Shown in pieces: positions 9,605-16,460 of a DNA stretch of 64,000 nucleotides. Positions within the stretch are counted from its first letter, which is position 1. Each line of letters begins with the position of its first letter. The translations under genes were made by a program, and so were the position numbers. This stretch comes from Pseudomonadota bacterium (GTDB lineage: Bacteria; Pseudomonadota; Alphaproteobacteria; Sphingomonadales; Sphingomonadaceae). Under the pieces are notes generated by a model. It saw only the letters and a list, made by a program, of their open reading frames with translations. It was not told the origin of the DNA and ran no database searches. The stretch covers positions 186,001 through 250,000 of the forward strand of contig JAJZTH010000001.1 of the NCBI GenBank assembly GCA_021849075.1, given 5' to 3'.

Positions 9605-9677
9605 CGTCATCCCAGCGATAGCTGGCGCCTCTCTCCCCCGAAGGAGAAGTGAAGCCCCAGCTTTCGCTGGGATGACG
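9605..9677. repeat. Palindromic repeat, CGTCATCCCAGCGA family, intergenic copy
   Basis: Arms of 21 bases at 9605-9625 and 9657-9677 match as an inverted repeat with one mismatch, around a 31-base loop. The element lies between the ffh stop and the rpsP start, so the transcript can fold it. The core CGTCATCCCAGCGA recurs inside mtaB at 15443. It looks like a REP-type element of the host genome. Confidence 0.82.
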
Positions 9678-15143: not shown

Positions 15144-16460
15144 ATGCCCGGCCCTGACATCATCACCATGGGCTGTCGCCTCAACATCGCGGAGAGCGAG
15201 GCGATACGCGACATGGCGGCGGGACAGGATGACCTGATCGTCGTCAACAGCTGCGCCGTGACCGCCGAAGCAGTCCGCCAGACCCGGCAGGCGATCCGCC
15301 GCGCCAAGCGGGAACGGCCCGACGCCCGCATCCTCGTCACCGGTTGCGCCGCCCAGACCGAACCCCAGACCTTCGCCGCCATGGCCGAAGTCGACGGCGT
15401 CATCGGCAACCGGGAGAAGATGGAGGCGGCAACCTACCTCCCGTCATCCCAGCGAAGGCTGGGATCTCAGGCGATAGGGCGCGACGTTGGGCCTGAGATG
15501 CCAGCCTTCGCATCCATGGCGGAAAAGGTGCGCGTCTCCGACATCATGGCCGTGCGCGACACCGCGCCGCACATGGCCAGCGCTTTTGCCGACCATGCCC
15601 GCGCCTTTCTGGAGGTGCAAAATGGCTGCGACCATCGCTGCACCTTCTGCATCATCCCCTATGGCCGGGGGAACAGCCGCTCCGTCCCAGCCGGCGCAGT
15701 GATCGACAAGGCCAAACAACTGGTCGACGCGGGCTATAGCGAAATCGTGCTGACCGGCGTGGACGTCACCAGCTATGGCCCGGACCTGCCCGGCAGCCCC
15801 TCGCTCGGCCTGTTGATCGAACGCATATTGAAGGGCGTGCCCGACCTCCCCCGCCTGCGCCTCTCCTCAATCGACAGCGTGGAGATTGACGAGCGGCTGT
15901 TCGATCTGATCGCGCACGAGCCGCGCATGATGCCGCATCTGCATCTGTCGCTTCAGGCCGGCGACGACATGATCCTCAAGCGCATGAAACGCCGTCACGG
16001 CCGCGCCGACGCCATCGCCATCGTCCAGCGCGTCAAAGCCGCCCGCCCGGACATCAGCATCGGCGCGGACATCATCGCCGGCTTCCCGACCGAGGATGAC
16101 GCCATGTTCGAAAACAGCCTGAGGCTGGTCAACGAATGCGACATCGTTCACGGCCATATCTTCCCCTATTCGCCCCGCGCCGGCACGCCCGCCGCGCGGA
16201 TGCCGCAGGTGGACCGCACGACGATCAAGGCCCGCGCCGCCCGCCTGCGCGACGCCTGCGCCGCCCGCCGCGACGACTGGCTGCGCAGCCTGATCGGCGC
16301 CACGCAATCAGTGCTGGTCGAACGCAGCGGCATGAGCGGCCATGCCGAAAATTTCGCCCCGGTGCGTTTCGCATCGGCACAGCCCCCTTCCTCCATCGTG
16401 CGCGCGACAATCACGGGCCTTGAGAATGGCGCCCTGATCGCGCAAGAGGCGCAACAATGA
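15144..16460 (+). CDS. mtaB: tRNA (N6-threonylcarbamoyladenosine37-C2) methylthiotransferase
   Basis: This 438-residue radical-SAM enzyme has the N-terminal UPF0004 domain (ITMGCRLNIAESEAIRDMA, NSCAVTAEAVRQTRQAIRR, VTGCAAQTEPQTFA) and the radical-SAM motif C162-x3-C166-x2-C169 in NGCDHRCTFCIIPYGRG. It adds a methylthio group to t6A37 of tRNAs. Between about residues 101 and 125, just before AEKVRVSDIMAVRDTAPH, the protein carries an extra segment encoded by a REP-like palindrome (15442-15515), in frame. The C-terminal TRAM domain looks short. The stop overlaps ftsY in ATGA. Confidence 0.93.
   Translation: MPGPDIITMGCRLNIAESEAIRDMAAGQDDLIVVNSCAVTAEAVRQTRQAIRRAKRERPDARILVTGCAAQTEPQTFAAMAEVDGVIGNREKMEAATYLPSSQRRLGSQAIGRDVGPEMPAFASMAEKVRVSDIMAVRDTAPHMASAFADHARAFLEVQNGCDHRCTFCIIPYGRGNSRSVPAGAVIDKAKQLVDAGYSEIVLTGVDVTSYGPDLPGSPSLGLLIERILKGVPDLPRLRLSSIDSVEIDERLFDLIAHEPRMMPHLHLSLQAGDDMILKRMKRRHGRADAIAIVQRVKAARPDISIGADIIAGFPTEDDAMFENSLRLVNECDIVHGHIFPYSPRAGTPAARMPQVDRTTIKARAARLRDACAARRDDWLRSLIGATQSVLVERSGMSGHAENFAPVRFASAQPPSSIVRATITGLENGALIAQEAQQ
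15442..15515. repeat. Palindromic repeat, CGTCATCCCAGCGA family, inside mtaB
   Basis: Arms of 21 bases at 15452-15472 and 15491-15511 match as an inverted repeat with one mismatch, around an 18-base loop. The left edge CGTCATCCCAGCGAAGGCTGG matches the ffh-rpsP element at 9605. The insertion is a multiple of three and adds about 24-25 residues (SSQRRLGSQAIG to MPAFAS) to MtaB without a stop codon. Confidence 0.85.

Follow-up and report, generated by a model that had tools for sequence, protein, structure and literature searches.

A tRNA-modifying enzyme gene in a sphingomonad genome carries a palindromic repeat inside its coding sequence. How did such a repeat come to lie within a reading frame, and is the segment it encodes merely tolerated or put to use? 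The gene lies in the window, the whole 64,000-nt stretch of DNA that was analysed, which is part of a 3.67-Mb draft genome (G000). It is mtaB (15144..16460, plus strand), encoding a tRNA (t6A37) methylthiotransferase of 438 amino acids. The protein passes the cut-off of the equivalog model TIGR01579 (433.2 versus 357.05 bits), and among the matches listed its closest named loci are mostly Sphingobium.

A REP dimer in the linker of MtaB

MtaB contains a UPF0004 domain (PF00919; residues 6–88, 15159..15407, plus strand) and a radical SAM domain (PF04055; residues 157–329, 15612..16130, plus strand), and the repeat lies in the linker between them. Two 25-nt hairpins, arranged head to head, form an 80-nt palindrome at 15442..15521 on the plus strand. 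A covariance model identifies it as an in-frame REP dimer of the CGTC-1 type, here called family F1 (61.1 bits, E 1.8e-16 for the window). The left REP (15442..15466, plus strand) has a CGTC tag, an 8-bp stem, and a 4-nt loop, in the same register as in other aligned elements. A 30-nt spacer (15467..15496, plus strand) follows, of a class that spacer comparison finds in the mtaB elements of loci L030, L032, and L035 as well. The right REP (15497..15521, minus strand) has a diverged outer stem in the element alignment (row L211). A repeat finder places the arms at 15441–15472 and 15491–15522, 32 nt each and 81% complementary; the inner ~20 bp are almost perfect and the right arm is diverged in its outer part.

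The original prediction had placed an in-frame palindrome here. The palindrome is real and extends to 15521/15522, 6 nt beyond the end first given. Its left edge, CGTCATCCCAGCGA, had been matched to an intergenic element at 9605 and is identical to 9605–9618, within an intergenic F1 element at 9605..9677 that scores 48.7 and 44.7 bits on the two strands. With up to two mismatches this left-edge pattern occurs six times in the window, against 1.22 expected, and none of 100 shuffles was as high. Translation agrees that the element keeps the reading frame and holds no stop codon. The linker of this MtaB is 38 residues long versus 14 in the commonest empty form, giving 24 extra residues where about 24–25 had been anticipated.

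This MtaB and an uninserted homologue were modelled with AlphaFold2, at mean pLDDT values of 75.5 and 78.1. Corresponding elements flank the linker in both, and the stretch adjoining it is weak in both. Insert residues 109–123 fall in a low-confidence part of the model (pLDDT <50). The uninserted homologue's linker (about residues 91–110) is modelled with fair confidence (pLDDT 76–83), so the description "flexible" lacks support from the models for uninserted linkers. When this MtaB is aligned with the solved MiaB structure 7mjz, a gap covers part of the insert.

The F1 family and known palindromic repeats

The 14-nt left-edge pattern matches the whole genome 27 times with at most one mismatch, and the reversed pattern not at all. 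A dimer covariance model built from 24 elements gave 49 matches, corresponding to at least 26 distinct places; this is a lower bound, with 150 of 3730 candidates scored and distinct places counted by hand. The description of the palindrome as REP-like, and as occurring at other genomic sites, is thus borne out. We examined the open frames around all 26 places. Three elements lie in frame within Pfam-supported genes: the one in mtaB, half an element in glyS, and a single arm in a gene for a class V aminotransferase. The other 23, judged by eye, lie outside genes, before a start codon, or in implausible frames only. The single arm in the aminotransferase gene (L262:1501-1622, G000:C20:97815) is read as SLRWDD, and by our reading that gene is cysteine-desulfurase-like. 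Elsewhere in the genome, a different palindrome, CGTCACCCCGTGCTTGATCCGGGGTC, with an inverted partner adjoins an F1-type element (L265:1622-1705, G000:C56:23393). Some F1 copies have a variant left arm, longer by about 20 nt (CCCGAAGGGCGGCGTCAGCCAA-like); they lie inside mtaB (L033, L037) and, in this genome, between genes (L026/L253).

The conserved unit of the family is the REP hairpin, with its within-arm stems. Across the 24-element alignment, 99.2% of cells in the within-arm 8-bp stems are paired, against a shuffled mean of 90.0, and 30 cells carry double changes versus 4.7 in shuffles (0 of 500 as high). Among 70 distinct elements there are 86 compensated within-arm double changes, 56 of them not common to the other arm. 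One long hairpin was considered as the conserved unit and rejected, since arm-to-arm pairing is 90.0% against 88.9% in shuffles (34 of 500 as high). Arm-to-arm double-change cells (11 versus 5.8, 7 of 500 as high) and the covariation score (1 of 500 as high) do exceed shuffles, as would be expected of related arms; the within-arm stems are far stronger. Rfam at its gathering threshold returned no match in the window between 9000 and 18000. The Y1/RAYT transposase family PF01797 was searched as a candidate mover, with no matches in this 95.6% complete draft genome, and a RAYT encoded here was accordingly dropped as candidate; a PF01797 match is present in 23 of 94 genomes of the same genus.

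Rickettsia palindromic elements (RPE) are palindromes found in frame within protein genes. The mtaB element is like them in this respect; the hosts and genes differ, and the two are likened by description only. The main text of a report on CGTC REPs equates RPE-6 with CGTC-1 and RPE-4 with CGTC-4 (PMC3733652; Di Nocera et al. 2013). It describes alphaproteobacterial CGTC REPs without a dedicated transposase, and CGTC-1 REPs as head-to-head dimers, some of them intragenic. Intragenic dimers coding for 20–30 amino acids are given there for several species, and recB is hit at roughly the same position in two Xanthomonas species. Intragenic REPs are named for S. chlorophenolicum and S. wittichii, and REPs in tRNA synthetase genes for E. 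litoralis and S. alaskensis. That main text makes no mention of MiaB or of a methylthiotransferase. The original view that few sphingomonad cases are known needs correction: REPs in sphingomonad genes were already in this text, and dozens lie at the mtaB linker.

F1 resembles the CGTC-1 REPs as described there in its CGTC tag, its 8-bp stem beginning with AT, its 4-nt loop, and its head-to-head dimers. The unpaired tag CGTC begins the left arm here and is found in 22 of 24 aligned elements (exception L042:2437, with AGTC; L015 ends in GACA). The first stem pair is A-U in 23 of the 24, in both helices, and the loop occupies gap-free alignment columns 13–16 and 75–78. Matches to the dimer model at 26 or more genome places reflect the head-to-head arrangement, with single REPs not tallied apart. 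The tail is CTC both here and in the alignment consensus, with CCA in a few rows; for CGTC-1 the text gives CCA for "most" (PMC3733652). REPINs, which are moved by RAYTs, are like F1 in that two inverted REP hairpins and a spacer act as a unit, as outlined in the available text of PMC3116915 and PMC2817692. They differ in their GTAG tag, in contrast to the CGTC of F1, and in the lack of a PF01797 match in this genome. We found no paper on palindromes in MtaB in the literature searched, in which most subscription papers and supplements were outside reach. Unlike the cases in the main text of the CGTC-1 report, the mtaB linker takes several families, in two frames and in dozens of species, and has empty, nested, decayed, and frame-broken forms. 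What is known already is thus the CGTC-1 class and REPs inside genes, sphingomonads included; what is new is a multi-family, fast-turnover hotspot in the MtaB linker.

The same linker across the genus and beyond

We compared 94 genomes of the same genus. MtaB was found in 91, and all 91 loci were read; the other three (G023, G058, G064) gave weaker matches only, and no locus was taken. Locus L088 (G078) has an F1 element, its spacer 32 nt long, at which the reading frame is broken; a draft sequence error may be the cause. Because of this break, neither the linker counts nor the tree include the locus. The linker was defined as the stretch between IGNxEK and xSDIM, and each of the 90 readable linkers was scored against its own shuffles. 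By score, 22 carry F1 and 18 carry F2, a family unrelated to F1 (CGTTCGTGTCGAGCGAAGTCGAGACACG). L044 (F1) and L106 (F2) were added by eye, for a total of 42 in which either family sits, whole or as a remnant, at the same linker place. Scores of F4 exceeded shuffles in L067 and L113 and were left uncounted. Presence of the segment in all relatives had been named beforehand as grounds for dropping the prediction; a recognised F1 or F2 element is absent from 48 of the 90 linkers. These uninserted linkers are 13–23 residues long in 47 cases and 41 in L067. Inserted linkers span 17–64 residues, the short ones being remnants, and at least 7 of the 42 hold partial elements or scars by eye (L043, L059, L063, L064, L068, L073, L106). 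The linker comparison thus points to a tolerated insertion, as originally proposed.

F2 is read in two frames. Frame 1 (VRVERSRDT...DFARSER) occurs in L038, L051, L056, and L057 and as a remnant in L043; frame 2 (PFVSSEVEKR...FSTSLETNG) occurs in 14 others, the frames being our own assignment. In L058 and L061 a further family is nested within F1. F2 also occurs outside mtaB, with eight distinct arms in the fetched loci, this genome included. Across the genus, REP-size inserts within MtaB number 38 at the linker and 1 elsewhere, plus 31 at the N-terminal end that we read as frame continued upstream of the start.

At residue 6 of the linker, Tyr stands in 38 of the 42 inserted and Phe in 35 of the 48 uninserted forms. 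As proven co-change this was rejected, the independent pairs (9 on starred branches) being non-significant (median p 0.125). In-frame survival could reflect use of the segment instead of tolerance. The hairpin or extra peptide might be kept for a function, such as an mRNA hairpin that slows ribosomes at the domain boundary or a peptide that tunes the enzyme; unrelated palindromes would then recur at one place as they do, and the Phe/Tyr difference could be compensation. Yet that difference does not hold over independent pairs, more than half of the same-genus linkers do without a recognised element, F2 occurs in two reading frames, decay to remnants is common, and the right stem of this very mtaB copy has diverged. 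We regard such a function as very unlikely to explain the pattern.

The pattern extends beyond the genus, with other repeats in the linker of further Sphingomonadaceae. Among 80 named loci listed, 32 have inserts of at least 7 residues at the linker, 34 have them at the N-terminal end (again, by our reading, frame upstream of the start), and 4 at one C-terminal place; these loci overlap the genus set, with the same linker strings, and the counts are not added together. Long linkers with a hairpin occur in Rhizorhapis, Blastomonas, Sphingosinicella, and Sphingomonas, among others. A third family, CGTTAGTGCTGAGCCTGTCGAAGC, lies in the linkers of L197 and L174 (two uncultured genomes), and with up to three mismatches it matches those genomes 33 and 63 times, the reversed pattern never. 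As a repeat family the S. cavernae linker palindrome found no support: only its own two arms match (up to three mismatches). Among linkers of at least 25 residues in L161–L208, 13 of 19 have a z of -2.5 or lower against mononucleotide shuffles and 6 do not; long linkers without a hairpin thus exist, L067 (41 residues) being an example from the genus set. Class-wide, 113 of 133 genomes have an MtaB match, most aligned without a REP-size gap. Single alignments in G220, G179, G199, G169, and G205 are 20–32 residues longer than the query stretch covered, and a few alignments start close to the linker (for example, G126 and G203).

We took up glyS, the gene for GlyRS beta, because the survey of this genome had found a half element there. 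From 93 genomes with a match we compared the best 30, a selection that disfavours inserts, and by eye REP translations lie between WLVEEGIV and ADLAEQ in 7 of the 30 and between ANILKKE and ELSY in 6. At a third place in glyS (L266–L295), between NNLRFPV and AEGDLLDFF, there are unrelated inserts of about 15–80 residues that do not look like REPs. mtaB is a clear REP site, though not the sole one. A search with the F1 peptide, biased by a query in the mtaB frame, was followed up by inspecting frames at eight loci, with further long-frame matches, such as those in G048, G033, and G022, left aside; none of the eight was convincing as another coding insertion, and three frames looked spurious. 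In L224, L230, L234, L226, and L232 the F1 element stands before the likely start of a neighbouring gene, by our reading pgk (L224, L230, and L234, three other species), rpsP, and ddl. An F1 element also stands just before the presumed pgk of this genome (L240).

Movers that recognise the linker DNA would account for one place in MtaB taking unrelated families, and for glyS showing only two such places among the 30 loci compared. Uninserted linkers, however, are not like F1 or F2 above their own shuffles, families with different ends share the linker, and the exact insertion point varies by codons between loci. Such site-specific insertion is therefore quite improbable.

Turnover of the elements and the reading frame

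The F1 spacer is divisible by three in 15 of 16 mtaB copies (exception G078) versus 9 of 34 elements elsewhere that were not found by the peptide search (Fisher p 8e-6), or 27 of 54 with those found (Fisher p 0.0014), in tests that ignore relatedness. The MiaB paralogue has no REP-size excess in 93 full-length or nearly full-length matches, the largest being 10 residues; a 94th match (G040) is partial.

Linker contents change between close relatives. In the pairs L037/L055, L043/L083, and L039/L052, the 48-nt windows adjoining the linker are 0.94–1.00 identical and the linker differs; the other pairs compared are less alike. On a tree of the flanks, at least 33 changes among four states are needed, against a shuffled mean of 37.4 (5 of 200 shuffles reach so low a count). 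Starred branches require at least seven changes for F1 and at least eight and at least three for the two F2 frames. These 33 changes overstate the number of insertions, because the F1 spacers of L028, L030, L032, and L035 are 0.77–0.90 alike, against 0.60–0.70 at best to the 54 elements elsewhere. Their likeness suggests that some F1 alleles share descent or were exchanged.

A few old insertions, spread by interspecies recombination or kept by descent and often lost, might then explain most of the pattern, and the four loci with similar spacers do lie apart in the flank tree. A separate insertion is nevertheless needed for each unrelated family, for each of the two F2 frames, and for each F1 spacer class, of which there are at least two. 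We infer from the separate families, frames, and spacer classes perhaps six or more insertions in place of 33 changes. As the account of most of the pattern, a few old insertions are rather doubtful; the lowered count is compatible with the reading we prefer.

In that reading, which we hold to be probable, the MtaB linker tolerates differences in length and keeps REP insertions that preserve the frame, and the segment in this genome is a REP dimer turned into coding sequence. It builds on direct observations: what the repeat is and where it lies, its recurrence, the several families and two F2 frames, the spacer-length rule, and the clean paralogue. REPs of several unrelated families would spread in these genomes, and those landing in the linker between the UPF0004 and radical SAM domains would survive because it tolerates extra residues, provided that the net length keeps the frame. 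The repeat would be translated as a flexible stretch. Elements may then erode by in-frame deletion, be nested into by other repeats, or be replaced, in part perhaps through short-tract exchange between species. Selection would act on the enzyme's reading frame and be blind to both the repeat and its peptide.

Coding palindromes have mostly been reported gene by gene. The MtaB linker offers a natural series at one site, with near-identical flanks and a clean paralogue: across dozens of species its alleles are empty, filled, nested, decayed, or frame-broken. A caution follows for annotation: where a sphingomonad protein shows PAFAGMT, VERSRDT, or a similar string, the source can be a translated repeat and not a conserved domain. 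A bolder version, which we consider unlikely, holds that the linker is a docking port where REP families repeatedly become protein and where the state of the port (element, frame, and length) is selected and tunes MtaB. If true, selfish hairpins would time and again supply a core tRNA-modifying enzyme with new segments. With the MtaB series, mere tolerance and actual use of REP-coded segments can be put to the test against each other.
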